A DNA stretch of 64,000 nt from Chryseobacterium soldanellicola. GTDB lineage: Bacteria; Bacteroidota; Bacteroidia; Flavobacteriales; Weeksellaceae. Location: NCBI RefSeq assembly GCF_900100115.1, contig NZ_FNKL01000001.1, positions 310,001-374,000 of the forward strand, written 5' to 3'. Shown one piece after another: positions 7,226-57,296 of this stretch (the first letter of the stretch is position 1; every line of letters starts with the position of its first letter). Under the pieces are notes generated by a model. That model did not search any database. It was not told the DNA's origin and saw only the letters and a program-made list of their open reading frames with translations. The translations under genes and the position numbers were made by a program.

Positions 7226-7400
7226 TCTTACTAATAAAGCCGCTAATTTACAAATATTATACATTAAAAAAGTTATTTAACTAATTTTAATTTAACTTAA
7301 AATAATATTAAATGTAAAATCTTTATCAAAACTGGTTTTATTAATATTCAAAAATATAAAAATTGGTGACCTTATTTTTCAATAAATCAAAATATAAAAA

Positions 7401-21761: not shown

Positions 21762-21836
21762 AATATTTTTGTTTCAACAAATTTAATTTTTTTTTGAATA
21801 TACCACATACATATTTATCTTTTTTTGTGTTAAAAA

Positions 21837-21866
21837 TTAAAGCCTCCCGAAATCAGGAGGCTTTAA
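21837..21866 (-). terminator. terminator of the 1193-residue T9SS type B gene
   Basis: TTAAAGCCTCC and GGAGGCTTTAA, an 11-base perfect stem with an eight-base loop, directly adjoining the stop codon at 21868. Confidence 0.85.
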
Positions 21867-21867
21867 T

Positions 21868-24800: not shown

Positions 24801-25449
24801 CAGCTGGTAAAACTGCCAGATTGGTATAAGTAGGATCCCCTACTTTTTTCAGCAATAATGCAAAGGCATCTGAAATGCTACATGTAAAATTTCCCTGATA
24901 TTCTTTTGAAGCAAACAAATATCTGAAGGTCACCTTTGTAGAGCTCGGTACAAAATCAAATTCAATATAAGTGGCATCTCTAAGATCAGCATTATTTACC
25001 CCGATTGCATTAGCCAAATCTATATCTCCCGCTGAAGGCAGAGGGTCACTTAATGTTCCCTGAAAATTATTTCCTGCTTTTCTTGCAAATCCTGTTGTCA
25101 GAACGATTCCTTTTGCAAAAGGAAAATTCGTTGTTGCTTTATTGAAATATCCCCAGCTTCTGTTCTGGTCTGTGACTGCTAAATTAGGAGAAACCACTAC
25201 ATTGCTTACGTTCGCCGTAGTACATGTGGAGCCACCGGCAATAAGAACGTCTTTTACTAATTGTGTGATACTATAATTTGACTCCGGATATCCGGCTGCA
25301 TTTACATCAATAAAAGCACCGGTCTTCATGCTTACCGCTGTAGGTGTTTTAGCTACAACAGTTCTATCCTTCCTTTGTGCAAAAGTAACGGTACTGATGA
25401 GTGCTAAAAATAAAGTCAAAAATAAATTTCTTGTCCTCCTATTTAACAT
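21868..25449 (-). CDS. large T9SS type B surface protein with choice-of-anchor L and repeated Ig-like modules
   Basis: An 1193-residue exported protein, the largest of three paralogues. The N-terminal signal peptide ends TVTFAQ. The choice-of-anchor L domain follows (FRYLFASKEY, VSVTNIIPANL), then at least eight Ig/PKD-like modules, and then a T9SS type B sorting domain (ITPNDDGINDVIDFSGIS to LLKNRN). The extra length comes from a repeated block: modules containing FYYVSQADANAGNANT-like and LTASGGATYNW-like sequences occur twice, about 745 bases apart, and the ATYNW module recurs four times. The product should form an extended surface stalk. Function is not known; adhesion is the best guess. 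Confidence 0.87.
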   Translation of the reverse strand: MLNRRTRNLFLTLFLALISTVTFAQRKDRTVVAKTPTAVSMKTGAFIDVNAAGYPESNYSITQLVKDVLIAGGSTCTTANVSNVVVSPNLAVTDQNRSWGYFNKATTNFPFAKGIVLTTGFARKAGNNFQGTLSDPLPSAGDIDLANAIGVNNADLRDATYIEFDFVPSSTKVTFRYLFASKEYQGNFTCSISDAFALLLKKVGDPTYTNLAVLPAGAGAVSVTNIIPANLPCGPKNAAYFAGMNNPQIETNFDGRTIPLTATATVIPGQTYHFKMVLSDFQDSNFDSAVFLEAGSFDIGVEILNPAGVALPSSINVCDNAPQVLTASVQGGGATYQWLFNNGIIPGATNGSYTATQPGIYTVQVFLPGNTCPGTASVTIVGGTSPTVQNATLTSCYAPGNAIFNLTSAQGAISTTPGATFAYYVSQADANAGNANTIAAPNAYSSPGGQTVYVLVKSGFCSKVAELNLVKAPQITGSIAPPQVLTCTNSQITLDATGSTYPPGSTFSWTATGGGNIVSGGNTLNPVVNTAGTYTLTISNTYQPGNVTCTGTATVNVTGNSAPPTTTLTATKILICNGETVTLTASGGATYNWVGLPGTGATQTVSPTTTTTYTVTAVGANGCVSQTPATITIEVSQPITVQNATLLKCYEAGNTIFDLTSAQPQITTVPGVTFTYYVSQADANAGNANTIAAPTTFPSTGQTVYVLVKNGGCSYVVNLQLIRTAETTLTVAQPQTITCTTAQVTLNASASVIPAGSTIAWTTTGGNIVSGANTLTPVVNAGGTYTLTVSNVTQPGNLTCTYTTTVTVAQNTTLPVAGLTSSVPQICVGESVTLTATGGATYNWTGLPGTGNTQVVSPTVTTTYTVFAVGANGCISANPATVTVVVGPPTATIAASKSKICAGESVTLTAGGGITYNWVGLPGNGNTQVVSPTVTTIYSVYALGGNGCSSINPATITIEVVPAITSTLQDVYVCAGDFGILDAGFTAGYTYLWSTGATTPTISTNIPGPYSVTISNGTCSKVFTASLLNPTLPQFTNIVFDNHVLTLSASNPTNGILEYSIDGGITWQTSNMFYNVLNNTNYNLRVRTKDAKCSTGLDYYTFVISNAITPNDDGINDVIDFSGISDYNRFAGSIFNRYGQEIFKATKSEPVWRGNIRGIKQPTATYWYRVQWENPASKKLELRTGWILLKNRN
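22560..24330 (-). repeat. internal tandem duplication of Ig-like modules
   Basis: Nearly identical stretches recur, for example around 23385-23430 and 24140-24190 (GCATTGGCATCTGCCTG and GCATTGGCATCCGCCTG), and several copies of a GGTTTACCGGGAACGGG-like unit encode LPGTGNTQ. Boundaries are approximate. Confidence 0.7.
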
Positions 25450-25569
25450 TTTATATTATTTTAAACAAAAATACTATTTTTTTCGATTGAATTTCAATTC
25501 TATGCAAATTGTCTTATTACTACGATAAACTTATTTCTAATCAAATGTCAATTTCATTACTTAAAAACG

Positions 25570-25599
25570 AAAAAAGGCCAACAAATTGTCAGCCTTTTT
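25570..25599 (-). terminator. terminator of the first T9SS type B gene of the trio
   Basis: GAAAAAAGGC and GCCTTTTTC arms with an imperfect inner stem, 24 bases beyond the stop at 25623. Confidence 0.75.
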
Positions 25600-25622
25600 C
25601 AATATATTTTTTCTTATAAATT

Positions 25623-27989
25623 TTATTCGAAGTTTTTCAATAAAATCCAACCTGTTTTTACAGCGATTTTCTTGGTTGCAGGATCTTCAAAACTTACCTG
25701 ATACCAATAAGATGCCGTTGGAAGACGTTTACCCTGAAAATAACCGTCCCAATAAGGTCTGATTTTTTCAGCTTTAAATACTTCTTTTCCGTAACGGTCG
25801 AAGATGCTTCCTTTGAAATCTTTATACTCAACGATTCCTCTGAAATCAATGATATCATTTTTAGTATCACCATTCGGAGTAATTACATTCTGCATTACAA
25901 ATGTGAAATATTCTAAGAAACCTACACAGCTTGTCTTTTTCACTCTTACTCTTATTGAAATCACAGAGTTTTTAGGAACATTATTAAAGATATTAGAATC
26001 CTGCCATGTAACTCCATTGTCCACTGAATATTCCAATGGGCCGTTACTTGGATTGCTTGCTGTAAGGATCATGGTTCCGTTATCGCTGTAATCTACTTTA
26101 ATAATTTCAGGAATAATTGCCTGAATTACCTGCGTTGTGTAAACTTTCGTACAAACTCCGTTATTAATAGTTACAGTATAAGTACCCGGAGTTCCCACCG
26201 TAATCGTCTGAGTTGTAGAACCTGTATTCCAAGAATATGAATAGCTTGGCCCCGCTCCTGCGTCTAAAGTGATCTGGTCGCCTGCACAGATCATTCCGCC
26301 TTTAAGGTCGGAAACAATGGCAGGAACTACCTCTACTTTTACAGTTGCCGGAACTAAAGACTTACATCCTTGCGCTCCGATTGCATATACGGTGTACGTT
26401 GTTGTCTGAGTCGGGCTTAAAGTTCTTACAGGCCCCGTTCCTGAAAAATCATCCCAAAGATACGTTACTCCTCCACCCGCGGTTAACGTTATTGATTCTC
26501 CCGCGCAGATTCTCAATTTTGTGGAAGTAAGGGTAGCTACCGGGGTGGTTTCTTTTCTTAGCGTTAACTGTACCAATCTGCTACAGAATGAGCCGTTTGA
26601 AACCACTACATATAATATCTGGCCATCAGTCCCGTTAAAATTAGCCAATCCGGCCGTCGGAATAAAACTGCTGTTCTGGGCAACGGCATCCGCCTGATTT
26701 TGGTAGAAATAAAAAATTGCACCCGCAGTTGTGCTGATTAAAGTTTTTGCGGTATTTAAATTAAAAGTATCGTTGGAAGGTGTTGCACAAAGCTTTAATG
26801 TGGCATTTTGTGCTGCCGGGGATGTACCTCCGACAATCGTAATTGTCGCCGATCCCGGACATTGATTTCCAGGGACTGAAGCTTTCACCTCATAAACTCC
26901 CGGTGCTACAGCCGTATAAGAGATGTTTGTTGCTCCCGGAATGGCTGCTCCGTCTTTATACCACTGGAAAGTCATTCCCGGAACAGCTCCTACCTGAGCC
27001 ATTAAAACCTGTGGTGTATTGTCGCACATATTAATGGTATCCGGTAAAACGACTCCGTTTCCGTCAACAATTTTAATTCCTATATCAAAAGATCCTCCTT
27101 CAATGAATACAGCAGAATCATATCCTGTATCTCTGTAATCGGATAAAACCATTTTAAAATGATAGGCAACTCCCGGCGTAACGTTTGCTATTGCCGTTAA
27201 AGGAATTGTTCTTCCTTCATAGTTTGTTACAATATTAGACGCAGAATTATATCCTGCAAAATACGTTTCATTGACAGCAGGACATCCTCCAATTCCTGGA
27301 ATAGCGGGGTGAATGTTTGTCATGCTTACCGGCCCTGCCGTTCCCGGTAGAACAGCCACATTCACATAAGGACCGCCACTTACAGGCTTAATCAATAAAG
27401 CAAATGCATCAGAATACTGACATGGATAACTGCCTGTATATTCTTCGGAAGCAAAAAGATAATTAAACTTCACCTGATTGGAGTTGGGTACAAAATCAAA
27501 CTCCAGCATTACATTATCATTATAATGATCGGTAGGATTGGTGATAGGAACTGCCGCAACCAGATCAGGATCGTCCATTCCGGCACCAATAACATTGGTA
27601 CTTACCGATGATGCTACATTTCCTGCCTCTCTGGCACGACCTGTAGTTAAAACAATACCATCTGTAAAAGGGAAGTTTGTCGTTCCTTTATTGAAATATC
27701 CCCAAAACCTGTCATTATTCGTTACCGGATGGTTTGGAGTAATCGATACATTCGTTACGTTAGGCACCGAACAGGTCGATCCTCCGTTAATAAGAATATC
27801 TTTTACAAGTTGCTCTGGAGAATAATTAGAAGGGGCATACCCCGCGGCATTTACATCTATAAAAACTCCTGTTTTGTTGTTTGCCGATGTTATTATCGTT
27901 TTAGGAGGTTTTCTCTGAGAAAATACCGAAACTGAAACCAATAGCAATACTAAAAAGAAAAAGTAGTTTTTTAATCTATATTTTAACAT
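25623..27989 (-). CDS. T9SS type B surface protein with choice-of-anchor L domain
   Basis: A 788-residue exported protein, collinear with the 785-residue paralogue. It has a signal peptide ending SVFSQ, then a choice-of-anchor L domain (FNYLFASEEYTGSYPCQYSD, VSMTNIHPA). Ig-like modules with paired cysteines follow (IRICAGESITLTAGGG), then a C-terminal T9SS type B sorting domain (ITPNGDTKNDIIDFRGIV to LLKNFE). It is the first of the leftward trio. Each of the three genes has its own terminator, so expression may be independent. Surface display and adhesion are inferred from the domains, not shown. Confidence 0.88.
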   Translation of the reverse strand: MLKYRLKNYFFFLVLLLVSVSVFSQRKPPKTIITSANNKTGVFIDVNAAGYAPSNYSPEQLVKDILINGGSTCSVPNVTNVSITPNHPVTNNDRFWGYFNKGTTNFPFTDGIVLTTGRAREAGNVASSVSTNVIGAGMDDPDLVAAVPITNPTDHYNDNVMLEFDFVPNSNQVKFNYLFASEEYTGSYPCQYSDAFALLIKPVSGGPYVNVAVLPGTAGPVSMTNIHPAIPGIGGCPAVNETYFAGYNSASNIVTNYEGRTIPLTAIANVTPGVAYHFKMVLSDYRDTGYDSAVFIEGGSFDIGIKIVDGNGVVLPDTINMCDNTPQVLMAQVGAVPGMTFQWYKDGAAIPGATNISYTAVAPGVYEVKASVPGNQCPGSATITIVGGTSPAAQNATLKLCATPSNDTFNLNTAKTLISTTAGAIFYFYQNQADAVAQNSSFIPTAGLANFNGTDGQILYVVVSNGSFCSRLVQLTLRKETTPVATLTSTKLRICAGESITLTAGGGVTYLWDDFSGTGPVRTLSPTQTTTYTVYAIGAQGCKSLVPATVKVEVVPAIVSDLKGGMICAGDQITLDAGAGPSYSYSWNTGSTTQTITVGTPGTYTVTINNGVCTKVYTTQVIQAIIPEIIKVDYSDNGTMILTASNPSNGPLEYSVDNGVTWQDSNIFNNVPKNSVISIRVRVKKTSCVGFLEYFTFVMQNVITPNGDTKNDIIDFRGIVEYKDFKGSIFDRYGKEVFKAEKIRPYWDGYFQGKRLPTASYWYQVSFEDPATKKIAVKTGWILLKNFE

Positions 27990-42731: not shown

Positions 42732-43559
42732 ATGGAAAAAGAGCACAACCTGATTCCCGAAGACGCGCTCTGGAAAAGACACCTTTACAAAATTATTTAC
42801 CGTTCCGATACCAAACTCGGGAAATTATTCGATATCATATTATTATCTTTAATTCTTATAAGCACTTCTATCATTATGATGGAAAGTGTTCCAAAGCTGG
42901 ATAAAAGGTTTCATTATACGTTCATCATTCTTGAATGGATTATTTCCGTATTTTTTTCTGCAGAATATTTCAGCAGAATTGCGGTTGTAAAAAATAAGAG
43001 ACAGTATATTTTCAGTTTTTTCGGGATTATTGATTTTTTGGCTTTGGTTCCGTTTTATTTAAGCTTTTTCTTTCCGGTTACGAAATATTTCCTGATTTTC
43101 AGAATGCTGAGAATGTTGAGGGTTTTCAGGGTTTTTAACCTTCTGGATTTTATGAATGACGGATATGTCATTGTGCGGGCATTAAAAAACAGCTCACGAA
43201 AAATTTATATCTTCCTTTTATTTTTAATTATTTTCTCGGTGATCGTTGGCTCTCTGATGTTTATGGTGGAAGGTGGAAGACCGGGCTTTGAAACCATTCC
43301 GCAGGCTATTTACTGGGCTGTGGTGACGGTAACAACGGTGGGTTACGGTGATGTGTCACCCATTACGCCGATGGGAAAATTCTTTGCAGTGATCTTAATG
43401 CTGGCCGGTTATTCGATTATTGCCGTTCCTACAGGGATCGTGACGGCTGAAATGCGAAACAAAAGACAAAACCTTGAAAAAGTCTGCGAGCAATGCGGAA
43501 ATGAAGATATTGATGATGATGCGAGATATTGCAAACAATGTGGCAAGAAATTAGCTTAG
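42732..43559 (+). CDS. voltage-gated potassium channel-like ion transporter with C-terminal zinc ribbon
   Basis: A 275-residue six-helix channel. S1-S3 lie at about 32-50, 62-82 and 95-117. The voltage-sensing S4 (RMLRMLRVFRVF, residues 124-135) has arginines every third residue. The pore has the selectivity filter TTVGYGD (201-207), indicating K+ selectivity. S6 covers about 216-240. The C-terminus carries four cysteines C252, C255, C267 and C270 in a zinc-ribbon arrangement (CEQCGNEDI, CKQCGKK), an uncommon tail that could sense metal or aid tetramer assembly. A near-consensus -7 box (AACATTTG) ends two bases before the ATG. A small membrane protein gene follows on the same strand. Confidence 0.9.
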   Translation: MEKEHNLIPEDALWKRHLYKIIYRSDTKLGKLFDIILLSLILISTSIIMMESVPKLDKRFHYTFIILEWIISVFFSAEYFSRIAVVKNKRQYIFSFFGIIDFLALVPFYLSFFFPVTKYFLIFRMLRMLRVFRVFNLLDFMNDGYVIVRALKNSSRKIYIFLLFLIIFSVIVGSLMFMVEGGRPGFETIPQAIYWAVVTVTTVGYGDVSPITPMGKFFAVILMLAGYSIIAVPTGIVTAEMRNKRQNLEKVCEQCGNEDIDDDARYCKQCGKKLA

Positions 43560-43602: not shown

Positions 43603-43761
43603 ATGGAACCACAAAAGAAAAATAAGCCAAATAGTTTAGTAATTATACTTTTTGCTTTAGTTGTATTAATGGTCATCATTTATTTTATACTCGTGATGTT
43701 TTTCCCAACTGTTTTTGAGCATATGACCACAGGAGATATACAACCCGTTCCCAATAAATAA
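43603..43761 (+). CDS. 52-residue single-pass membrane protein
   Basis: ATG at 43603, stop TAA at 43759-43761. The protein begins MEPQKKNKPNSL, has one hydrophobic helix (residues about 13-36, VIILFALVVLMVIIYFILVMF), and a short outside tail (EHMTTGDIQPVPNK). It lies 43 bases after the channel gene, on the same strand and before a strong terminator, so co-transcription is likely. No family is recognised. A charged N-terminus followed by one helix fits an inserted membrane peptide; a role as channel partner is only a positional guess. Confirmation needs conservation of the frame in relatives. Confidence 0.6.
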   Translation: MEPQKKNKPNSLVIILFALVVLMVIIYFILVMFFPTVFEHMTTGDIQPVPNK

Positions 43762-43793: not shown

Positions 43794-43819
43794 AGAGGCG
43801 ACCTTTTACAGTCGCCTCT
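43794..43819. terminator. terminator between the 52-residue gene and the T9SS gene
   Basis: AGAGGCGAC and GTCGCCTCT, nine paired bases with an eight-base loop. It may serve both convergent genes. The same hairpin is repeated at 44974-44993. Confidence 0.85.
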
Positions 43820-44097
43820 ACTTATTTTATAATTTATAAGTTATTTCTTGATGGTTTTAACGGTTTGTTTAGAACCGTCTTTCATGTTAAGAATTACACT
43901 ATACATTCCCTGCTTCAATTCTCCTAAGCTAAGAGCTGATGAAGGATTTTCAATTGTTTTAACCAATCTTCCGGAAATATCTGTAATCGCAACCGACTTC
44001 ACTTTTGAAGCGTCAGAGATATTCAATACCTCTGTAAACGGATTTGGATATACCTTAAGATTATTCTTGTTGGCCGAAACTTCAGAAGTCGCTAAAG
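43797..44097. repeat. T9SS tail plus terminator, copy 1 (pairs with 44974-45274)
   Basis: 301 bases, covering a terminator arm and the last 85 codons of the gene at 43841, match 44974-45274 with about ten substitutions by eye, nearly all silent. Similarity stops sharply upstream of the sorting domain. Confidence 0.85.
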
Positions 44098-44611
44098 TAG
44101 CAGCATCTACGACAAAAGTGTCTGCATACAACTCCCATTGATCGGTATCAGTAGCATGAATAGCGATATAAACCGTTTGTCCGGCGTAGGCTGAAAGATT
44201 AAAAGTTTTCTGAGCCCAAGTTGTGGGAGCTTTTTCCATGGGTTGTAAAACTGTTGTAAATGCAGCTGCAGTCTGATTAGTTGTGGAAAGCAAAACTTCA
44301 TAATTCTCCAGATAAGCAGCACTTCTGGACTTTACATAAAAAGATATTCTGTCAGCTATCCCAACTTGAACAGCGATAGCTTTAGTGATTAAATAATCAT
44401 CATGTGCAGCAGTTCCATAGATAATTTTAGCAACGTTTGTCCCCGTTTGGCCTGTTCCTGTTCCCGGACTTGCGAAAACCCATCCATTTGGATCTCCACT
44501 GTTAACAACGGCCCATCCTGCGGGCATGCTGGTTGCCGTATCAAAATTTTCTGTCCATTGTCCAAAACTTGCTATCGGAAATCCCAGAATAAAAAGTAAT
44601 AATTTTTTCAT
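43841..44611 (-). CDS. T9SS type A protein with choice-of-anchor J domain
   Basis: A 256-residue exported protein. A signal peptide (LLLFILGFPIASFG) precedes a choice-of-anchor J (MAM/cleaved-adhesin-like) beta-sandwich of about 165 residues (WTENFDTATSMPAGWAVVNS, then QWELYADTFVVDA). The last 72 residues (KVYPNPFTEVLNISDAS to VKTIKK) are a T9SS type A sorting domain. Choice-of-anchor J domains occur in Bacteroidetes adhesins and in the hemagglutinin regions of gingipains. Here it is a minimal single-domain version. The sorting domain and terminator are nearly identical to those of the upstream neighbour. Confidence 0.88.
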   Translation of the reverse strand: MKKLLLFILGFPIASFGQWTENFDTATSMPAGWAVVNSGDPNGWVFASPGTGTGQTGTNVAKIIYGTAAHDDYLITKAIAVQVGIADRISFYVKSRSAAYLENYEVLLSTTNQTAAAFTTVLQPMEKAPTTWAQKTFNLSAYAGQTVYIAIHATDTDQWELYADTFVVDAATLATSEVSANKNNLKVYPNPFTEVLNISDASKVKSVAITDISGRLVKTIENPSSALSLGELKQGMYSVILNMKDGSKQTVKTIKK

Positions 44612-45017
44612 GTTTTTTTATTTAAAAATTCTTTACAATTATACCAACATGAAAAAAAATATCAAAATTATTTTCGAAAATAATTCAAATTACCATGAAT
44701 AATCCTAACACGTTATATCTATCAAAAACAGACAATTAAGATGATAATTTTCATACATTTTATTTTATTTTAAAAATAAAAAACACTTAATATTTAAAAT
44801 TGAAAAAAAAGAATTTTATAAAAAAGTTTAATCAAAAATCAATAACATTAATATTTTACTACTTATATCTGGAAAGCACTTTATTATTTTAACATCAATC
44901 ACAAACAATTAAACTATAACAAACCTTTAAAAGGTAGTTAATTATATAAAATCCTTTTTTTTTAAACAAAAAAGGCGACCTTTTACAGTCGCCTCTACTT
45001 ATTTTATAACTTATAAG
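44612..45017. other. A/T-rich gap upstream of the choice-of-anchor J gene
   Basis: About 406 bases, very A/T-rich, with the terminator of the next gene (44974-44993) at its right end. A short palindrome AACCTTTAAAAGGT lies near 44922. The promoter of the 44611 gene should be here, but I see no clear consensus box. No gene seen. Confidence 0.55.
44974..44993 (-). terminator. terminator of the 656-residue T9SS gene
   Basis: GGCGAC and GTCGCC stem with an eight-base loop and a T run on the minus strand; a copy of the hairpin at 43794-43819. Confidence 0.8.
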
Positions 45018-45274
45018 TTATTTCTTGATGGTTTTAACGGTTTGTTTAGAACCGTCTTTCATATTAAGAATGACAATATACATTCCCTGCTTCAATTCTC
45101 CTAAGCTAAGAGCTGATGAAGGATTTTCAATTGTTTTAACCAATCTTCCGGAAATATCTGTAATAGCAACCGACTTCACTTTTGAAGCGTCGGAGATATT
45201 TAATACCTCTGTAAATGGATTTGGATATACCTTAAGATTATTCTTATTGGCCGAAACTTCAGAAGTTGCTAAAG
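44974..45274. repeat. T9SS tail plus terminator, copy 2 (pairs with 43797-44097)
   Basis: The second member of the near-identical 301-base pair, differing from copy 1 at about ten positions. Confidence 0.85.
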
Positions 45275-46988
45275 CCGTTTTGGTAATATTGATCGTGAAA
45301 GGACCTTCCATCTCATCTGACCACTCGCTGTAATGACCTACATTTACATAGTAAGTATTTCCTGAAAGCGTAGGGATAGAAAGCATTTCCGTACCACCCT
45401 GGCCACCCATATCTACTGTATCTTCGCAAGATAAAGCTGAACAGTTTCCGCTAAATACACCGATTTGAGGATCAAATAAGCTTCCTGAAGGCATAGTCAC
45501 TGTAATATAAACAGGATCTCCGTCTCCGGTAAATGTAAACCAAGTACCGTCATTCATCCCATTATTAGAGCAAGCTGTAAGCATTCCTGCATTATTGGTA
45601 GATCCTGCTGCATCTGCCTGAACATAAGTATAAGGGAAAGAAGATGCAATCAACGCTCCTGAACAGTCATCGTTTGCAGGCGGCGGCGGGAATGTTCCTA
45701 CACAGATATCAAAACTCTGGTTACTTCCCTGATCTGAGTAGCTGTATACTCTCACATAATAGGTCTCACCCGGAGTTAATCCTGTAACGACACTAGATTC
45801 TGCGTCAGAGCATAAAATGCTTAATAAGCTGCCACAACCTCCACTGAATACCTGGAAATAAGTATCTGTATCTCCTACTGTGCTTCCTACCGAAACAATA
45901 TTGCTTAGAGAAATCAAATGTCGTGTAGCTGTCGCTGTGAACTTATACCAAACATCATCGTCCGGATCTCCGTAGCAAGGATCAGGCACCAATCCTGAAT
46001 CTGTAGCTCCGATTGTGTATCCTGAAGTAACAGTTCCGCAGTTAAGGTCTGTATTTACCGTTAAAGTAGTCGCTGTTATACATTCGTCGTTGGTAGGAGC
46101 CGGCGGCATTGTTGTAAACATAATTTCACCACAACCCGAAGATTCTCCCGCAGATCCTACGGCAACTACTTTTACGTAATAATTTGTATTCGGATTTAAA
46201 GCTACCGAAGGAACAAAATTATTGGTTGTTGTAGATTGCTGGTTGACAACATTCGTGCCTCCAGGAGTAGTTCCGATTGAGATTTTGTACCCTGTAGCTC
46301 CCGATGAATTATTCCATGTGATGCTTGGCGCCAACGGAACGAATGTCGCATTGTTAGCCGGATACGTAATCAACGGACAAGCCGGAATAGGATTTTCCAC
46401 CAATCCGTTAAATGTTGTAACAGATTTAAAATCAACTAAATTTCCGTCTGGCGGTGTGTTAGGATCCGGGTTATTACCATCATTTTTATAATAAATGGCG
46501 GAATTTGGCGCTGAAGGATACACGTAAAATGCTTCATCAAAGTCATTATTATCATAACCCTGAGAATTTTCTTCTGCTGCAAGCACTAAATTATCCGAAT
46601 TATTATACGGAAACGGTGTGGCAAAAGTAACTTCCACGACTCCGTTTACATTAGATACCGTTCCTGCATACACCTGTGTAAGCTGCCCTACAGGTATCCA
46701 GTCTGCATCAGAAGTGAAAGATGTTTTAGTAGTATGTCCTAAATACACTACCCAATCTGAAGAAGCTGCGAGAGACATTGCAGGGTCCAGATAAAATTTA
46801 AGTCCGGTAATATTTCCTGCAGCATTGGCATTGATTTCCTGCTTGGTAAAGATCTGCTGAACGTAGGAATATCCGTAGTACGTACTAATGGGGGCCTCGC
46901 CGACATCGGTGCTCCCCAAGCCCAAAGTGATCTGGGATTTTAAGGTCATACTTAACATGATTAAGCATGAGAGTAGAAATTTTGTCAT
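45018..46988 (-). CDS. T9SS type A surface protein with FN3-like and C-terminal beta-sandwich modules
   Basis: A 656-residue exported protein. A signal peptide (MTKFLLSCLIMLSMTLKSQ) is followed by an N-terminal domain of about 190 residues (YYGYSYVQQIF, GNITGLKFYLDP). That domain is shared with the next gene upstream and not recognised. One FN3-like module (about 205-295) follows, and then two beta-sandwich domains of the type that begins NDECITATTL or NDDCSGALIA with DVWYKFTATA. The T9SS type A sorting domain ends it. It may bind surface glycans or proteins. It stands in a run of four leftward T9SS genes, each with its own terminator. Confidence 0.85.
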   Translation of the reverse strand: MTKFLLSCLIMLSMTLKSQITLGLGSTDVGEAPISTYYGYSYVQQIFTKQEINANAAGNITGLKFYLDPAMSLAASSDWVVYLGHTTKTSFTSDADWIPVGQLTQVYAGTVSNVNGVVEVTFATPFPYNNSDNLVLAAEENSQGYDNNDFDEAFYVYPSAPNSAIYYKNDGNNPDPNTPPDGNLVDFKSVTTFNGLVENPIPACPLITYPANNATFVPLAPSITWNNSSGATGYKISIGTTPGGTNVVNQQSTTTNNFVPSVALNPNTNYYVKVVAVGSAGESSGCGEIMFTTMPPAPTNDECITATTLTVNTDLNCGTVTSGYTIGATDSGLVPDPCYGDPDDDVWYKFTATATRHLISLSNIVSVGSTVGDTDTYFQVFSGGCGSLLSILCSDAESSVVTGLTPGETYYVRVYSYSDQGSNQSFDICVGTFPPPPANDDCSGALIASSFPYTYVQADAAGSTNNAGMLTACSNNGMNDGTWFTFTGDGDPVYITVTMPSGSLFDPQIGVFSGNCSALSCEDTVDMGGQGGTEMLSIPTLSGNTYYVNVGHYSEWSDEMEGPFTINITKTALATSEVSANKNNLKVYPNPFTEVLNISDASKVKSVAITDISGRLVKTIENPSSALSLGELKQGMYIVILNMKDGSKQTVKTIKK

Positions 46989-47124: not shown

Positions 47125-49770
47125 TTATTTTTTGATCACTTTAACTGTCTGATTAGCACCATTTTTCATTTCCAATGTTACTAAGTACATTCCTGATTTT
47201 AATTCACCCAAATAAAGAGCTGAGGAAGGATTTGTGATTGTTTTTACCAATCTTCCCGAAATATCAGTAACTAAAACCGTCTTCACACCTGCAATATCTG
47301 AAATATTTAACACATCAGTGAAAGGATTTGGATATACTTTAATATTATTTTTAATATTTGAAGTTTCATTTGTTGCTAAGACAGAAGCATCGTAAGCAGA
47401 AATCTGGAACTGTCCGTTTGTACCTGATCCCGAAGAATATCTCCAAATGCTTACCAATAAAGTAGACCCCGGAGTCTGACCTGTTAAAGTCACTTTTGAG
47501 AAATTACCATCACCAGAATCATCATCACAAGAAACATCTGTTAAAGATCCACAAGATCCGCTGAAAACATTCATAACAGAATCGGTAAATGTAGATCCTG
47601 CCGCACCTCTTGTTTCAATTGTAATACTTCCTGAAGCAGGAACCACCACCGAATACCAAACATTATTAACTGCATTGGTCTGGCAAGCCATTGGTGTTCC
47701 ATCTGTTGTTGCTCCGTTGTTTGAAGCAATGATTGCACTAGAGGCAAAATCTCCGCCTAAAGTTAAAGCAACAGGATTTGCACAGTTATCATTGGTAATT
47801 GCTGTAGAAATCAATAAAGGCCCCGCCCAAGCACTCTGGTCGCTTCCTGAGCAACGAGATCTTACCCAAACATAATAAGAAGTTGCCGGTGAAAGACCTG
47901 AGATTGTTTTAGAAGTTCCCGTGATCGCCGTATAATTCGGATTTGTTGTTGATACAGGAGCCGTATTGTTTGTGCTGTAATATAGATCGTATCCATTTGC
48001 TGGAGCTGTACCAGGCGCCGTCCAGGAAACATCAACAGATGATGTTGTCGGGTTTGCAGAAGTAATGTTGGATGGCTCCAGACAAGTAGGCGCTACCTGT
48101 AATTTGAAATCATCAACTCCCAAATACCAAGGCGAACCGTTGGACGAAACATTTACCGCAAAATAATAATTATTGGTTGTTGTAGGAGTATAAAAAACTT
48201 TATACAGCGTATAAGAACCTGTACCCTGAGTAGAAGTAATAAACGTACCCAGAGATGTTGCCGTACCTGCATTTGTAGAATTATTCACCAAAACATCTCC
48301 CGAAAACCCAACGTAAGAGCTGGTTGTACCGTTTGTATTGTAATAGAATGAAAATTCATACGTTGTACCTGCCGTTAAATTAAACCCTGGAGTCCAAAGC
48401 TGGCTTGCTGCCGTATTTCCGTAAGGGATCGACATATAATTCGGAGCAGATTTCGGTGCATTATAACTTACCGAGCTCGCATTCATAGAAGACCAGTTTG
48501 TTGTACCGACTGTTGTAGACCAGCACATTGGAACCGATCCTAAGCCTAAAGATGTTAAGCCGTCAAAATTTTCCGTCCAAGGTAATGCTGTAATTGCATT
48601 TGTACATGCTGTTGAGAAATTTCTCTCTACACAGCTTGCTGAAATATTATTTGCCGTATAAGCGTTAACTGTATAATAATATTTAGTTCCGCCAGCTAAA
48701 GGAGTTGCAAAAGTGTATGACGTGACATTTCCGATATCTGAATTATTTAAGACATCTGTACCTCCTGCCGTTGTACCAACAGAGATTTTATATCCGATTG
48801 CATCAGTTACTGCGCTCCATTCGATAGTTGGTGTTGAAGAAAGCCCTGTTGCATTTGAAACCGGCGCCGTAACAGTAGGACATCCGATATTTTTAGTCGT
48901 AAAGCTTAATGGAGAACATCCTGAAGATGAACCACCCGCGCCATAAGCATTTAAGCTGTAATAATACTGTTTTCCGTACAATAGCGGTATAGTAAATGTG
49001 TAGCTTGTAACATTTCCAAGGTCTACATTATTCATCACATCAGTTCCGCCGGGCGTTGTTCCCATTGTTAATCTGTATCCTGTTGCATTTTGAATTGAAG
49101 ACCAGTTGATTACTGGCAAATTCGTAACACCGGTCGCCCCATTTGAAGGCGCAGAAACTACCGGGCAGGCAGGCAGAAGACTCTGCGTTAAACCAACAAT
49201 CGTCATGTTTGACTTTTTAGACATCCTTGATCCTGTCGGTGGTGCAAAAGGATCAGGGTTATTGCTGTCGCTTGCGTAATAAATACTTGAATTCGAGCTT
49301 GAGGTATAAGAATAGAAGTTCCCTGAAGAACCTGTATTATAACCTGCTTTGTTTTCATCAACAGCAACGACAAGATTGTTAACATTATCATAGCTGAATG
49401 GTGTTGAAAAAGCCACTTCCACGATTCCGGCGTTATTGGTAACCGTTCCGGAGAAAACCTGTGTAAGCGAAGATGCGGCAACCCAGTCTGAATCTGAAGT
49501 AAAGCTTGTCTTCGCGGTTGTTCCCAGATAGATCGTCCAGCTATCGGAATTTGTTAAACTTGTGGAAGATCCGCAGTAAAATTTCAGTCCGGTGATATTC
49601 CCGGCACCATTTGCATTGATCTCTGTTTTAGGAAAAATCTGTTGTGTATACGTGTAGCCGTAATACGGATAAACCGGGAAATAACTTGTGGATGTACCAC
49701 TTCCCAGTGTGATCTGTGCAGACATGCTTAGCCCAAGCATCATCAGACACATTAGTAAAAATTTTCTCAT
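47125..49770 (-). CDS. T9SS type A surface protein with FN3 and choice-of-anchor J-like modules
   Basis: An 881-residue exported protein. The signal peptide is MRKFLLMCLMMLGLSMSAQ. The N-terminal domain (YYGYTYTQQIF, GNITGLKFYCGS) is the one found in the neighbouring 656-residue protein. Two FN3-like repeats follow, starting PACPVVSAPSNGATG and CPTVTAPVSNATG. A choice-of-anchor J-like domain is next (TALPWTENFDGLTSLG), then an FN3 domain with LEPSNITSANPTTSSVDVSW. A CUB-like or pre-peptidase-like beta-sandwich (NDNCANPVALTL, NNVWYSVVVPASG) precedes the T9SS type A sorting domain. Such modular proteins in this phylum are mostly adhesins or carry carbohydrate-binding modules. Confidence 0.85.
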   Translation of the reverse strand: MRKFLLMCLMMLGLSMSAQITLGSGTSTSYFPVYPYYGYTYTQQIFPKTEINANGAGNITGLKFYCGSSTSLTNSDSWTIYLGTTAKTSFTSDSDWVAASSLTQVFSGTVTNNAGIVEVAFSTPFSYDNVNNLVVAVDENKAGYNTGSSGNFYSYTSSSNSSIYYASDSNNPDPFAPPTGSRMSKKSNMTIVGLTQSLLPACPVVSAPSNGATGVTNLPVINWSSIQNATGYRLTMGTTPGGTDVMNNVDLGNVTSYTFTIPLLYGKQYYYSLNAYGAGGSSSGCSPLSFTTKNIGCPTVTAPVSNATGLSSTPTIEWSAVTDAIGYKISVGTTAGGTDVLNNSDIGNVTSYTFATPLAGGTKYYYTVNAYTANNISASCVERNFSTACTNAITALPWTENFDGLTSLGLGSVPMCWSTTVGTTNWSSMNASSVSYNAPKSAPNYMSIPYGNTAASQLWTPGFNLTAGTTYEFSFYYNTNGTTSSYVGFSGDVLVNNSTNAGTATSLGTFITSTQGTGSYTLYKVFYTPTTTNNYYFAVNVSSNGSPWYLGVDDFKLQVAPTCLEPSNITSANPTTSSVDVSWTAPGTAPANGYDLYYSTNNTAPVSTTNPNYTAITGTSKTISGLSPATSYYVWVRSRCSGSDQSAWAGPLLISTAITNDNCANPVALTLGGDFASSAIIASNNGATTDGTPMACQTNAVNNVWYSVVVPASGSITIETRGAAGSTFTDSVMNVFSGSCGSLTDVSCDDDSGDGNFSKVTLTGQTPGSTLLVSIWRYSSGSGTNGQFQISAYDASVLATNETSNIKNNIKVYPNPFTDVLNISDIAGVKTVLVTDISGRLVKTITNPSSALYLGELKSGMYLVTLEMKNGANQTVKVIKK

Positions 49771-49948: not shown

Positions 49949-52288
49949 TTATTTTTTAATTGTTTTGATCGTTTGCTTAGAGCCGTCTTTCATTTCTAAT
50001 GTTACGATGTACATTCCTGATTTCAATTCTCCTAACTGAAGAGAAGAAGAAGGATTTGCGATTGTTTTCACCAATCTTCCTGAAATATCGTTAATAAGAA
50101 CGTTTTTCACTTTAGAAGCATCTGAAATATTCAGCACATCAGCAAATGGGTTCGGATATACTTTAAGATCATTTTTAGCATTCGATGTTTCATTTGTTGC
50201 CAATACAGAAGCATCATATGCTGAAATCTGGAACTGGCCGTCTGTACCTGATCCCGAAGAATATCTCCAAACGCTTACTAATAAAGTAGCTCCCGGAGTC
50301 TGACCCGTTAATGAAACTAAAGAGAAATTACCATCAGCAGAAGAATCATCATCACAAGCAACAGACGTTAATGATCCGCAAGATCCGCTGAATACATTGA
50401 TAACCGAATCTGTGTAAGTAGAACCTGCAACTGAATTTGTTTCAATTTTTAATGTTCCGGAAGCAGGAACCACTACGGAATACCATACATTATTAGTTGA
50501 ACTTGTCTGACAAGATTGTGCTGTACCATCAGCAGTTGCCCCCACGTTTGTTGTTGTAATTGCATTAGCACCAAATGTACCTCCTACTGTTAAAGGAGTT
50601 GGGTTAGCACAGTTATCATTTGCCGGTGGTGGTGGCGGAGTTCCGATACAAATATTAAAGCTCGCGTTATATCCTGCGCCAGAATACGTATATACTCTTA
50701 CATAATAGGTTTGCCCAGGTGTTAATCCACTTACAGTAGCCGTGTTAGGATCTGAACATAAAACGCTTGTCTGAGCACCGCAAGCCCCACTTAAAACCTG
50801 GAAATACATATCCGTGGTTGAACTTGTACCTGTTGAAACCACGCTTGACAAGGTCACAACATGTGAAGTACCCGTTGCCACAAAGCTATACCAAACATCA
50901 TCATCAGGATTTCCGTTACAAGGCGTAGCAGCCATAGATAAAGAGGCACCCAATGTATTACCGGCTGTTGTAACTCCACATGCTAAATCCGGATTTACCG
51001 TTAAACCGATAGCACCACCACAATTATCATTAGCAGGCGGAGCCGTTGCAGTTGTTGTAAATGATCTTACCGTACATGTTCCTGAGCTTGTAGATGCATT
51101 ATAAGATGTTACCGTATAATAATATACAGTAGACGGCATTAAAGCAGAAGCAAATGTGTATGAAGTAACATTACCTAAATCCACATTATTTACAATATCC
51201 GTACCTCCGGATGTTGTCCCAACAGTAAGCCTGTATCCGGTAGCTCCCGAAACCGCACCCCAAGAAATTGTAGGGATTGTGGAAACTCCTGTTGCCGCAG
51301 CTCCAGGCGAGCTTACACTTGGACAAGGCATTGCCAGCGTTGTAAATGTATTCTCTGTACATCCTGTAGCCAATCCTACAACGTTTTTAGGAATTACAGT
51401 TACGTAATACTGAGTTGAATATGATAACGGTGTTGCAGCAGGAATTGAATATGATGTAACATTTCCAACATCTACTCCATTCATGATGTTGGTCCCACCA
51501 GGTGTAGTCCCCATATTGATTACATAGCTAGACGTAATAGGTGTTGCCGACCAGGTAATTGTAGGGGTCACAGAAACTCCTGTTGCTGCATTTGCAGGTG
51601 CAGAAACTGTTGTACAAGAAGGCACTGTTGTTGGCGGCGGTACATTAGCATCAAATGCAATTACCGGTCTTCTATAGTTAGATGAAGTAAGCGTAGCCCC
51701 AAAAGTACCTGTTGTATTCACATATTTCGTAGTATTACTGTTTGAAGTATTAATACAAGGGCTGCTGTATTCATACTGCCAATAAATGGTAGATGCCTGA
51801 GCAGTAGTTTGCACATATTCCGTAAAAACTGCAAGATTGCTTCCTGCTGTATAAACGAAATTAGTAGAATGCTGAAACTGCTTAAATCCCGCGGTGCTTC
51901 CTACCGCTGTTTGAGGATTTGAATCATAAACCAATGTAGCAGTACCGGTTTCTGTTGCCCAATCAGGAGATCCTGATCCGAAATCTGTAGCAGTTGTATT
52001 TTTCAGATAAATTCTAAAATTCGCGCCTGCATTTAAGGTTCCCGAAGACGTTGATCTTTTGAAATAAGTTGACGTGATCGTACCGTTTGCGATATTATCC
52101 AATTGAGAAGCCGGAATGATAAAAGCCATTCTTTGCTTGTCATTGGCCGTCGTGTTGCTTCTCAGCACCGAATACGTGATGTTGTCAACATTTGATGAGC
52201 ACGTATTGACAGGATAAGCTTGACCCTGATACAATTGACAGGTGATCAGACCCGTCAAGAGTGAAAAAAATAGAAATAGTTTTTTCAT
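49949..52288 (-). CDS. T9SS type A surface protein with FN3-like modules
   Basis: A 779-residue exported protein. The signal peptide is followed by an N-terminal beta-rich domain (about 25-215, CSSNVDNITYSVLRSN, then WQYEYSSPCINTS) that differs from those of its neighbours. Two FN3-like repeats follow (SCTTVSAPANAATGVSVTPT and SVSSPGAAATG). Two beta-sandwich domains come next: NDNCGGAIGLTV, with DDVWYSFVATGTS, and NDNCANPTPLTV, with NNVWYSVVVPASG. The T9SS type A sorting domain ends it (KVYPNPFADVLNISDAS). The second beta-sandwich is almost the same as in the neighbour at 47125, so modules are being shared between these genes. Confidence 0.85.
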   Translation of the reverse strand: MKKLFLFFSLLTGLITCQLYQGQAYPVNTCSSNVDNITYSVLRSNTTANDKQRMAFIIPASQLDNIANGTITSTYFKRSTSSGTLNAGANFRIYLKNTTATDFGSGSPDWATETGTATLVYDSNPQTAVGSTAGFKQFQHSTNFVYTAGSNLAVFTEYVQTTAQASTIYWQYEYSSPCINTSNSNTTKYVNTTGTFGATLTSSNYRRPVIAFDANVPPPTTVPSCTTVSAPANAATGVSVTPTITWSATPITSSYVINMGTTPGGTNIMNGVDVGNVTSYSIPAATPLSYSTQYYVTVIPKNVVGLATGCTENTFTTLAMPCPSVSSPGAAATGVSTIPTISWGAVSGATGYRLTVGTTSGGTDIVNNVDLGNVTSYTFASALMPSTVYYYTVTSYNASTSSGTCTVRSFTTTATAPPANDNCGGAIGLTVNPDLACGVTTAGNTLGASLSMAATPCNGNPDDDVWYSFVATGTSHVVTLSSVVSTGTSSTTDMYFQVLSGACGAQTSVLCSDPNTATVSGLTPGQTYYVRVYTYSGAGYNASFNICIGTPPPPPANDNCANPTPLTVGGTFGANAITTTNVGATADGTAQSCQTSSTNNVWYSVVVPASGTLKIETNSVAGSTYTDSVINVFSGSCGSLTSVACDDDSSADGNFSLVSLTGQTPGATLLVSVWRYSSGSGTDGQFQISAYDASVLATNETSNAKNDLKVYPNPFADVLNISDASKVKNVLINDISGRLVKTIANPSSSLQLGELKSGMYIVTLEMKDGSKQTIKTIKK

Positions 52289-52637: not shown

Positions 52638-55600
52638 TTAATTTAAGTAAAATTCATACTTATTGAGAAGCTGAATTTCCTTAATCAGATCACCATTTAA
52701 ATCAACCGAATGCTTCATCGACTGTACCTCGATCTGAGAATCGTCCTCAATATTTTTAATGAAAAATTTTAACTTCTGATTTCCCTGATTCCTTTCAAGA
52801 ACGGTTCTGAAGAATGTAAGGTCTTCCGGCCTGAAATCCATAACATCCATGACCAGAGAAATGCTTTTTGCAAATCTTTCGAAGGCTTCCTGAAGCTCGA
52901 TCACATCATTTACATTCACAAAAACACGCCCGTCCTTCACCTGGGCAAATTTAATTTTAAAAATAACAAAACGCTGAACTTCAAGCTTTTCCTTCAATCT
53001 CATATAATCCCTGTCACCCAGCCTAAAAGAATATGACCCGGAATAGTCTTCAAGGGTAACAAAAGCTACTTTTTCACCACTTTTGAAACCATCCTGAACT
53101 CTATATTCGGTGATTAAACCTGCAACGGTGTATTCTTTACCGGCACCGCCATTTTCTCTTTCTTTCTGTAACGTTTTCCAGTCTTTTTTCTTTTCTTCAA
53201 ATAATTCTTCCTGCTTATTGGCAAAAGCCTGCTCTTTATAAGCATCAACCTCATCAAGATTTAGGAATAAAAAATTACCTTTTGGTTCGGCTTTTTTGGT
53301 GACTTCTTCAATAATTTCCTCTTCGCCAACAGACAATTCATCAGAAACAATTTCTATAAGATCCGCCACCTCATCCACCACGTCTTTTTCAAGAATAGGA
53401 ACTTCATCCGTAACCACTTTTTCTTCTTCTTTCTCCAATACCGCTTTTTTAGAAAGTTGCCCCTGCATAAACTGGTAATGATATTTAAACTCATCCAGCG
53501 GGTGCGCAGAAAGATAGAAACCAATGATTTCCTTTTCCTTATTTAACTTATGCATATTCGGCCATTCCGGACAAGGTGCTAGTTTTGGCTGCTCGATCTG
53601 AACTTCTTCCGCAAAATCTGCAAAAAGAGAATTTTCCATCTCATTTTTACTTTCCTGGAAGCTTTGTCCGTATCTTATCAATCGTTCCAAATTTGTTCTT
53701 CCCGCCATGTCAATATCAAAATACTGCCCTCTGTGGAAAGAATCCAGCTCATCAAAAGCTCCCGCCAACACTAAACTTTCCGCCACTCTTTTATTCATTT
53801 GAGAAGGCATAATTCTTTCAAAAAAATCATAGATATTTCTGAATCTTCCGTTTGCGCGTTCCCTTGTGATGGCTTCACTCGGCCCTTCTCCGATGCCTTT
53901 GATCGCTCCCAACCCAAAACGGATCTGCCCTTTTTCGTTTACCGAGAATTTATACTGTGATTCATTCACATCCGGCCCTAGAACATCAACTCCGATACTT
54001 TTACAATCCTCCATAAACATAGTAATTGAGTCTGTATTGTTGATGTTGTTACTCATTACACTTGCCATATATTCTGCCGGATAATTTGCTTTCAAATATG
54101 CTGTATGATAAGCAATTAAGGCATAACAGGTAGAGTGGGATTTGTTGAAGGCATATTCTGCAAAGGCCTTCCAGTCATTCCAGATTTTTTCTAAGCGTTC
54201 TTCATTAAGATTGTTTTTCTTTCCGCCTTCGATGAATTTCGGGTACATTTTATTCAGAACGTCGATCTGCTTTTTACCCATCGCTTTTCTTAACGTATCG
54301 GCTTCACCTTTTGTAAAGTTGGCCAATTTTTGAGATAAAAGCATTACCTGCTCCTGGTATACGGTAATTCCGTAGGTTTCCTTTAAATATTCTTCTGTTT
54401 CGGGTAAATCATAGACAATTTCTTCAATTCCATGTTTTCTGTTAATGAAATTCGGGATATATTTAATCGGACCCGGTCGATAAAGAGCATTCATCGCAAT
54501 AAGATCGGCAAAAACCGTTGGCTTAAGCTCCCGCATGTATTTTTGCATTCCGGGGCTTTCATATTGGAAAATCCCGACCGTTCTTCCTTCTTTAAATAAT
54601 TGATAAGTTTTGGTGTCATCCAGCGGAATCGTATCCGGATCGATGTCAACATTGTGTCTTTCTTTAACGAGTTTTAAAGCGTCTTTGATAATTGTCAGCG
54701 TACGAAGACCAAGGAAATCCATTTTCAGAAGACCTGCACTTTCCGCCACTGAGTTATCAAACTGGGAGACCAAAATGTCTGCATCTTTTGCCGCGATCGT
54801 AACCGGAACAAGATTACTCACATCTTCCGGCGTAATAATTACCCCACAAGCATGAATTCCTGTATTTCTGATACATCCTTCCATTTTCCTGGCACTCGAG
54901 AGCACGTCAAAACGCGGATCATTCGGGCTGTCAAGAACATACCGCATTTCGTCAACAAGCTGCTGTTCTTCAGGCTTTAATTTATCATATTTTGCCAAAG
55001 CTTTCGCAATATTCATTCCGGGGGTGGAAGGAATTAATTTAGCAATATTATTGGTTTCAGGAATTGAAAGATCTAAAACCCTTCCGGCATCTTTAATCGC
55101 TGATTTACCACCCAAAACCGAGTACGTAATGATCTGAGCAACCTGGCTCTGACCATATTTATCAATAACCCATTTAATAACCCTGTCACGCCCCTCATCA
55201 TCAAAATCGATATCAATATCGGGCATTGAAACCCTTTCCGGATTCAAGAATCTCTCAAAAAGGAGATCATATTTAATAGGGTCAACATTGGTAATCCCGA
55301 TCGTGTAAGCTACTGCAGAACCTGCCGCAGAACCACGTCCCGGACCAACCCAAACTCCCATTTTCCGGGCTTCGTTACAGAAATCCTGTACAATAAGGAA
55401 ATAACCGGGATATCCTGTATTAGCAATTACATCCAATTCAAAATCAAGACGTTCCTTGATTTCATCGGTAATTACTTGGTATCTTTTTCTGGCTCCTTCG
55501 TATGTCAAATGTGTTAAATACGCCATCTCCCCTCGTTTACCGCCATCAATCTCATCTTCTGGGTTAAGAAATTCTTCCGGAATATCAAATTTAGGAAGCA

Positions 55601-57296
55601 AAACATCTCTTTTTAAGGTATATGGACTGAATTTTGCAAAAAACTCTTCATAAGCCTCAAAAGCATCCGGGTACGCCAGAAAAGCCTCTTTTATTTCATC
55701 AGAATTTTTGATATAATATTCTCCTGTCGCAAGGCCTCTTCTTTTTCCAAATCCTTTTCCTACAGGTGTTGTCAGCTTTTCACCGTCCTTGATACAGCTT
55801 ACAATATCCTGAATATTAGAATCATCTTTATCGGTATAATAAGTCTCGTTCTGAGCTAAAATTTTAACATTATATTTATCTGCAAAATGCAGTAGAACGT
55901 CATTCAAATGCTCTTCTTCCGGTAGCTTATGGTTTTGGATCTGAACATAAAAATCATCTTCAAAAGTATCTTTCCACCATTTGAAAAGCTCCTCCCCTTT
56001 TTGCTCCCCTGTATTTAAAATCGCATCGGGAATATCTCCGTTAATCCCTGATGTTAAAGCAATTAAACCTTCTTTATATTGTGAAATTATTTCACGACTG
56101 ATCCTTGGAACTCCAAAATAAAAACCTTTCAAAAATCCAATACTTGAAAGTTTTGCTAAATTTTTATATCCATTAAAATCTTTCGCCAGCAAAACAACCT
56201 GTGTTCTTCTGTCGGGATCGTCTTTTGTAAACTGCTTCTGCTCGTACCGGTCTGAAATATAAAACTCACAGCCTACAACAGGAACTAATGACTCTGAGAC
56301 AGGTTCCTGCTCATTAAATTCTTCTCCATTTTCTTCTGCTTCCTGTTTTTTTGCTAAATATTCCTTGTGTTTTTTTGCTCTGTCGCTATTTGCTCCTTCA
56401 ACAGCCGAGACAAATTTGAAAGCCCCCATCATATTTCCCAGATCCACCATTCCGACAGCTGGGAAATTATCGTCAGAAGCTTTTTTAATCAAATCTGAAA
56501 TGCTGGAAGTCGCCATCAGCGTTGAAAAAACACTATGACTGTTGAAATTGAAATATTTCCCAAGATCAATCTCATCAATGCTTCCAAAATCGTTTTGCTT
56601 TTTCTTATTATTAAAATCGGCAACCTGCCTTCTGATAATAATCCCGAAAGGTTTGATCGGATCCGGATGCAGGGTCTTGAAATAAGCCAGCTGATCCTCT
56701 GAGGTTTTAAGAATTTCTGCAGGAATAACACCGATTCTCATCATTTCAAAGAAAACCTGGGCCGTTGCATTTACGTCGGCGGCGGCGTTGTGGGCTTCAT
56801 CGAATTTATTCCCGTACAGTTTTTCATAAAGCTCTTCCAGCTTCGGAGGCTTGAATTTTCCTCCGCGGCCACCTCCAAGCTGACAAAAATCGGTTCCCAA
56901 GATCATGGTATCGGCTTTTGGCTTTTCCTGAAGATTATCTTTTATATTTTTCCTGAAAAATTCGGCTCCTACAATATTGTAGTCAAACTCGACATTGTGC
57001 CCGGAAACCACTCTTACCCGATCTAAAACTTTGGAAAATTCTTCTAAAATCTCCTGCAGATCACGGCCTTCTTCATTGGCTATTTTGGTTGTAATCCCGT
57101 GGATTCTGGCGGCATTAAATGGTATATCGTATCCTTCTGGTTTTATGATATAATCCTGATTTTCAATTAAAACCCCATTATCATCGTGCAACTGCCATGC
57201 GATCTGAACCATTCTTGGCCAGTTATCTGAATCTGAAAGCGGTGCGTTGAAATTCTTAGGTAAACCTGTGGTTTCTGTATCAAAAACTAAATACAT
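52638..57296 (-). CDS. dnaE: DNA polymerase III alpha subunit with N-terminal DEDDh exonuclease
   Basis: A 1552-residue replicative polymerase with a fused proofreading domain. Residues 1-200 are a DnaQ-like exonuclease with all catalytic residues: D6 and E8 (FDTETTG), D105 (HNVEFDYN), H169 and D174 (AHNAAAD). A PHP domain (about 250-500) follows, but its metal motifs are degraded (MVDLGN instead of TDHGN) and it carries a charged insertion (about 300-335). The polymerase core has MPDIDIDFDD, with D695 and D697 as catalytic residues, and LLKMDFLGLR with the third Asp. A long acidic, low-complexity insertion (near residues 1290-1360) precedes the OB-fold. Fusion of exonuclease and polymerase makes the separate epsilon subunit less needed. 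Confidence 0.93.
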   Translation of the reverse strand: MYLVFDTETTGLPKNFNAPLSDSDNWPRMVQIAWQLHDDNGVLIENQDYIIKPEGYDIPFNAARIHGITTKIANEEGRDLQEILEEFSKVLDRVRVVSGHNVEFDYNIVGAEFFRKNIKDNLQEKPKADTMILGTDFCQLGGGRGGKFKPPKLEELYEKLYGNKFDEAHNAAADVNATAQVFFEMMRIGVIPAEILKTSEDQLAYFKTLHPDPIKPFGIIIRRQVADFNNKKKQNDFGSIDEIDLGKYFNFNSHSVFSTLMATSSISDLIKKASDDNFPAVGMVDLGNMMGAFKFVSAVEGANSDRAKKHKEYLAKKQEAEENGEEFNEQEPVSESLVPVVGCEFYISDRYEQKQFTKDDPDRRTQVVLLAKDFNGYKNLAKLSSIGFLKGFYFGVPRISREIISQYKEGLIALTSGINGDIPDAILNTGEQKGEELFKWWKDTFEDDFYVQIQNHKLPEEEHLNDVLLHFADKYNVKILAQNETYYTDKDDSNIQDIVSCIKDGEKLTTPVGKGFGKRRGLATGEYYIKNSDEIKEAFLAYPDAFEAYEEFFAKFSPYTLKRDVLLPKFDIPEEFLNPEDEIDGGKRGEMAYLTHLTYEGARKRYQVITDEIKERLDFELDVIANTGYPGYFLIVQDFCNEARKMGVWVGPGRGSAAGSAVAYTIGITNVDPIKYDLLFERFLNPERVSMPDIDIDFDDEGRDRVIKWVIDKYGQSQVAQIITYSVLGGKSAIKDAGRVLDLSIPETNNIAKLIPSTPGMNIAKALAKYDKLKPEEQQLVDEMRYVLDSPNDPRFDVLSSARKMEGCIRNTGIHACGVIITPEDVSNLVPVTIAAKDADILVSQFDNSVAESAGLLKMDFLGLRTLTIIKDALKLVKERHNVDIDPDTIPLDDTKTYQLFKEGRTVGIFQYESPGMQKYMRELKPTVFADLIAMNALYRPGPIKYIPNFINRKHGIEEIVYDLPETEEYLKETYGITVYQEQVMLLSQKLANFTKGEADTLRKAMGKKQIDVLNKMYPKFIEGGKKNNLNEERLEKIWNDWKAFAEYAFNKSHSTCYALIAYHTAYLKANYPAEYMASVMSNNINNTDSITMFMEDCKSIGVDVLGPDVNESQYKFSVNEKGQIRFGLGAIKGIGEGPSEAITRERANGRFRNIYDFFERIMPSQMNKRVAESLVLAGAFDELDSFHRGQYFDIDMAGRTNLERLIRYGQSFQESKNEMENSLFADFAEEVQIEQPKLAPCPEWPNMHKLNKEKEIIGFYLSAHPLDEFKYHYQFMQGQLSKKAVLEKEEEKVVTDEVPILEKDVVDEVADLIEIVSDELSVGEEEIIEEVTKKAEPKGNFLFLNLDEVDAYKEQAFANKQEELFEEKKKDWKTLQKERENGGAGKEYTVAGLITEYRVQDGFKSGEKVAFVTLEDYSGSYSFRLGDRDYMRLKEKLEVQRFVIFKIKFAQVKDGRVFVNVNDVIELQEAFERFAKSISLVMDVMDFRPEDLTFFRTVLERNQGNQKLKFFIKNIEDDSQIEVQSMKHSVDLNGDLIKEIQLLNKYEFYLN

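Follow-up and report, generated by a model that had tools for sequence, protein, structure and literature searches.

Gene conversion can make the members of a gene array evolve in concert, the textbook bacterial case being the rRNA operons. The locus described here resembles this case in that paralogues within one genome are closer to each other than to their orthologues, silent sites included, but it differs from the classic form in that a single domain is homogenised, in genes that otherwise share nothing. The closest account that we found concerns T9SS cargo: passages of one paper report domain rearrangement and allelic exchange in the gingipain and HagA surface proteins of Porphyromonas gingivalis, and state that gene conversion can take place in this species through homologous recombination (PMC5266723). 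As far as these passages go, the gingipain/HagA proteins are T9SS cargo with reshuffled modules, like the proteins considered in the following, and cleaved-adhesin domains occur both there and in one of our genes (gene A); however, the modules at issue there are catalytic and adhesin domains, whereas here it is the C-terminal sorting tail that appears to be exchanged between unrelated cargos (PMC5266723). At E<=0.001, we found one cleaved-adhesin match in gene A and none in its neighbour, gene B, and no peptidase domain in either, which places the two outside the gingipain/HagA group. Likewise, polymorphic toxin systems, in the parts of PMC3482391 that describe them, combine a constant delivery part with a variable partner and gain their diversity by recombination; there, it is the C-terminal toxin domain that varies, whereas here the C-terminal tail is constant and no toxin is implied. 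A limited literature search on T9SS or Por secretion in connection with gene conversion or concerted evolution returned no description of conversion of T9SS tails, and in the passages of PMC5266723 and PMC7323717 that it covered, concerted evolution is mentioned once, in a reference title on rRNA.

Here, we analyse a stretch of 64,000 nt from the genome of Chryseobacterium soldanellicola, which we refer to as the window. The source genome comprises 4.14 Mb in 9 contigs, and the contig that contains the window has 1.08 Mb.

A tract common to two neighbouring T9SS genes

In the window, four T9SS cargo genes, which we call A to D, follow one another on the minus strand. One border of this array is formed by a gene that we take by eye, from its sequence, to be ion-channel-like (42732–43559, plus strand) and that is present in 147 of the 148 genomes searched, source genome included; the other is formed by a presumably dnaE-like gene, named by eye (52638–57296, minus strand) and seen in 115 of the 121 loci compared below. 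Gene A (43841–44611; 256 aa) has a choice-of-anchor J / cleaved adhesin domain (PF07675; NF038128 with 85.8 bits at a cut-off of 30, residues 19–166) and a T9SS type A tail, and gene B (45018–46988; 656 aa) has, by profile matches, fn3, a galactose-binding-like domain (PF23759) and a T9SS type A tail. Both C-termini score above the curated cut-offs for this sorting domain, with 40.6 bits in A and 41.8 bits in B for TIGR04183 (cut-off 23) and with 42.9 and 43.0 for PF18962 (cut-off 27), and are accordingly predicted T9SS sorting signals. Genes C (47125–49770; 881 aa) and D (49949–52288; 779 aa) carry tails that are 73% and 75–76% identical, respectively, to those of A and B. Folding yields a terminator-like hairpin of 10 pairs after gene A (43794–43819, minus strand; -21.2 kcal/mol, z -6.1) and a second one after gene B (44971–44996, minus strand; -20.2 kcal/mol, z -5.6), with the same 5' arm and loop as in A and a different 3' end. 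Convergent with gene A lies a small ORF (43603–43761, plus strand) whose 52 aa include a hydrophobic stretch; this region is conserved between the channel gene and the last array gene in the relatives' loci L140, L136, L146, L147 and L262.

An earlier note on this DNA had claimed a match of about 97 percent over 301 bases between the ends of A and B, with changes that are nearly all silent and with unrelated proteins upstream, and each of these points is borne out. In a base-by-base alignment (ungapped, offset 1177), the gene A copy at 43797–44097 and the gene B copy at 44974–45274, both on the minus strand, are identical at 291 of 301 bases (96.7%). The tract takes in the T9SS tail, the stop codon and the 3' stretch and reaches into the hairpin as far as its 3' arm, and across the gene A copy identity falls abruptly at 43796/43797 and 44097/44098. 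Because the homology between A and B stops at the domain border, the tract edges sit there without any special event being needed. Nine of the ten differences are coding, eight of them synonymous and one not (Ser/Ile), and the tenth lies between the stop codon and the hairpin. The tails have a dS of 0.156 and a dN of 0.005, against a background dS of 0.71–1.57 in five other tail pairs subjected to the same computation, and the cargo parts are without similarity in blastp at E<=1e-3; near-identity at silent sites thus goes together with dissimilar flanks. A repeat search recovered these two copies, 96% identical over 300 nt, as well as a third one, at 67%, in the next gene.

The sorting-tail family has 83 matches in the source genome, on many different proteins. 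We compared 75 of them, leaving out six weak matches over the cut-off and two below it, and obtained 2775 pairs with a mean DNA identity of 0.550, a median of 0.551 and a 99th percentile of 0.652; the A/B pair, with 0.967, is the highest of all. Likewise, when the source genome is searched with the DNA of the block, the partner copy comes out at 97%, followed by genes D and C at 74% and by two weaker matches of 66 and 69%. If all tails of the genome were equally similar, no local event would be needed, as the earlier note had pointed out; with a median of 55% over the 75 tails and A/B on top with 96.7%, such uniformity is ruled out.

The ranks below A/B are taken by two tandem pairs on contig C5 (0.933 and 0.928), a distant pair (0.887) and an M36-type pair in the window (0.868). 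Cargo is related in these three other tandem pairs of the source genome, and the tail has a lower dS than the cargo in each: 0.076 vs 2.12 in C5:788596/791393, 0.32 vs 0.73 in C5:881413/884681, and 0.55 vs 1.90 in the M36 pair. In both C5 pairs identity climbs sharply at the tail, C5:881413/884681 being a mosaic with another stretch of >0.9 further upstream. These values point the same way as conversion between A and B, although a stronger constraint on the tail, if there is one, could partly lower divergence where the cargo is related. The M36 pair, a tandem with T9SS tails at 1863–4475 and 4625–7264 (minus strand) that we take by eye to encode M36-like metallopeptidases, is likely a second case of tail homogenisation in the window. 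Four genes at C5:45986, C5:763737, C5:818454 and C6:523102, to which the distant pair belongs and whose tails have identities of 0.82–0.89, were considered as a case of sharing without proximity and rejected, as their cargos are 90–94% identical over ~430 aa: they are whole-gene copies, that is, dispersed near-copies of one T9SS protein of ~520–532 aa.

Tail and cargo histories in the genus

The T9SS array between the ion-channel gene and dnaE varies among relatives. We took 120 stretches, of which 119 lie around the channel gene, in 119 of the 146 relatives that carry it, and one (L142) lies around an A-like gene in another place; together with the window, this makes 121 loci, which are not a random draw, since the first 17 stretches were picked for A-like cargo. 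L142 is without the channel gene and six loci are without dnaE, and 119 of the loci contain 308 tail genes, as found with a tail profile that was made from three window tails and favours tails of that kind.

Mean tail identity is 0.739 for pairs within one locus vs 0.707 for pairs between loci. With all cargo included, an identity of at least 0.85 is reached by 29 of 297 same-locus pairs vs 511 of 46981 pairs between loci. When the cargo next to the tail is unrelated, it is reached by 17 of 185 same-locus pairs (13 loci) vs 48 of 27182 between loci, counts that overstate the number of events, as the loci come from related species and are not independent; where cargo similarity is absent anywhere, the figures are 12 of 101 vs 31 of 13457. 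Permutation of the labels gives, for the 17 of 185, a mean of 0.4 and a maximum of 4 (2000 permutations). The sharing of tails between genes with unrelated cargo beside them hence recurs in other species; the 17 pairs divide into 14 of 105 adjacent and 3 of 80 non-adjacent ones. Similarly, 15 of the 78 reciprocal-best tail pairs fall within one locus, where 0.49 are expected; their cargo shows no similarity in six, some similarity but not beside the tail in three, and relatedness beside the tail in the remaining six. Outside the array, among 65 named loci, 60 had the channel gene and four others had tails, the sole testable pair having an identity of 0.833 and related cargo.

In a tree of 97 tails, A and B come out as sisters in the source genome (100/96), in L136 (100/98) and in L140 (94/90), and B tails mostly fall into B-only groups. 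In AU tests on a smaller set, with groups picked after the first tree was seen, joining the A tail to the A tails of L140, of L136 or of both is rejected (p 4e-9, 0.0011 and 6e-5, respectively), and a clade of the L140 and L136 A tails is not (p 0.14). Array genes that match the cargo at >=55% identity over at least nine tenths of its length number 19 for A and 52 for B, and four of the 19 are short A-like genes (L135, L140, L146 and L147), each closest to the channel. In L135 and L140, the channel-proximal slot that A fills in the window is occupied by a short choice-of-anchor-J gene whose T9SS tail has a different sequence, and L136 has a 400-aa form of the A-like gene there; in a cargo tree, A stands beside longer proteins of other architecture (86/86). 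In the source genome, the history of the tract conflicts with that of the rest of the gene, by the tail tree and the AU tests. The conflict is weaker for L140 and L136, where the A/B tails have a dS of about 0.7 and where, in L136, the cargo beside the tail is weakly similar; A/B tail homogenisation in these two loci is likely at best. The stretch that A and B share is the coding tail only in L136 and L140, whose A terminators are alike and whose B terminators are alike, A being unlike B, whereas in the window it reaches into the hairpin. Gene A DNA, searched against 173 genomes of the genus, matches 121 at E<=1e-30. No relative's tail is >78% identical among the matches listed, with the best three candidates per genome, and none in the 308-tail set is >79% identical to A or B.

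The clearest independent case of tail sharing with unrelated cargo is L262, whose genes 2 and 3 have unrelated cargo and tails that are 98.6% identical over 210 nt. Compared with L147_3, L262_2 is 79% identical in its cargo and 92% in its downstream flank, but only 81% in its tail, so that here the tract lies between orthologous flanks on either side. L262_3 compares with L147_4 at 90% in the cargo, 86% in the upstream region and 83% in the tail, with no match in the downstream flank (56%), and its channel-side flank is 87% identical to L147_5; this arrangement fits a tail-mediated deletion. Finally, L147_4 and L146_4 have the terminator flank in common (92% over 75 nt), but not the cargo. Taken together, L262, L147 and L146 suggest that tails can serve as junctions at which the cargo of one gene is joined to the terminator of another.

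Origin of the tract

We consider it quite probable that the near-identity of A and B is an ectopic gene-conversion tract between adjacent tails, and that such conversion has happened repeatedly in the genus, within its tandem T9SS array. A and B would have started as adjacent, co-oriented T9SS cargo genes with already homologous tails and would have recombined over the tail region, presumably by homologous recombination. About 300 bp, running from the tail through the stop codon and across most of the hairpin of the terminator, would thereby have been copied from one gene over the other, each gene retaining its own cargo and its own outer flank. Repeated in the array of the genus, such events would amount to a concerted evolution of the sorting tail, with the terminator at times carried along. 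The tail dS of A and B says that the event between them was not very recent. That gene A formerly had another tail is something we infer, as no close relative of the source genome was found. As for direction, we lean weakly towards copying from A to B, because the B hairpin looks hybrid: it combines a 5' arm that is perfectly complementary to the 3' arm of A with a B-like 3' end that includes a G-U pair. The two directions are not told apart by how similar the tails are to those of the orthologues of A and B, and the end branch, longer in A (0.043) than in B (0.0085), carries no direction signal.

The earlier note had named conversion alongside capture, in which a different cargo domain acquires a ready-made tail together with its terminator, a possible way in which new T9SS cargo arises. 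Conversion is well supported by the conflict between tail and cargo, the common silent sites and the recurrence between neighbours; for A and B, there is less in favour of capture by a new cargo. It would have made gene A by joining a choice-of-anchor-J cargo to a duplicate of the B tail and terminator, or by replacing the cargo in a duplicate of B, and it would account for a tract that is exactly tail plus hairpin. Moreover, the A cargo groups (86/86) with the N-terminal domains that longer proteins have in L132, L133, L137 and L139, so that a recent truncation with tail capture is possible, and the junction-like tails of L262, L147 and L146 lend the idea some support outside A and B. However, the slot of A is filled in relatives by a short gene that has the A cargo but a different tail, as in L135 and L140 and, in more distant form, in L146 and L147, which makes it less likely that a new gene was born here by capturing a tail. 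Both outer flanks also look native, as judged from distant relatives only: the sequence from the stop codon of gene A to the channel, much of it a small conserved ORF, is 83–84% identical to L140 and L136, and the bases 3' of the gene B hairpin are 76% identical to those of L136 B over the first 90 nt. For A and B, we thus regard capture as unlikely.

Two other explanations fare worse than either conversion or capture. Strong selection on the tail sequence alone would agree with the tail dN of 0.005, but silent sites and the non-coding stretch up to the hairpin are also common to A and B, the other tails of the genome differ widely, and the shared sequence differs between species; the silent sites rule out selection on the protein as the sole cause, and we find this explanation very improbable. 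An assembly artefact or chance has nothing but the near-identity itself in its favour and has to contend with ten differences, unique flanks on both copies, a contig of 1.08 Mb, an A/B identity far above that of the other tail pairs of the genome, and the same pattern in other assemblies. Chance is ruled out by the own-genome search and the ranking of tail pairs, and we give this last explanation as a whole next to no credence.

Possible roles of tail exchange, and further T9SS genes

Recurrent tail conversion, if true, would offer unrelated cargo proteins an easy means of retaining one shared and current signal, and it would caution against inferring orthology from tails. One study reports that P. 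gingivalis and Tannerella forsythia tails are not functionally interchangeable (PMC11285876), and for this reason export may depend on how alike the tails of one species are. More tentatively, the T9SS tails of tandem arrays might act as a recombination platform, in which conversion keeps the tails alike and matched to their own secretion machinery, and in which crossovers at these same tails exchange cargo, remove genes and bring cargo together with new terminators. We regard this wider idea as possible, if somewhat doubtful; if true, the array would be a site of fast surface-protein turnover.

Elsewhere in the source genome, two T9SS tails, at C6:56297–56503 and C9:286620–286832, have an in-frame stop inside the match and are possibly pseudogenes. 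In the window, three tandem genes of 785, 1193 and 788 aa (19404–27989, minus strand) have similar N-termini and a common ITPN..G..ND ending, which we take to be a gliding-type C-terminus.
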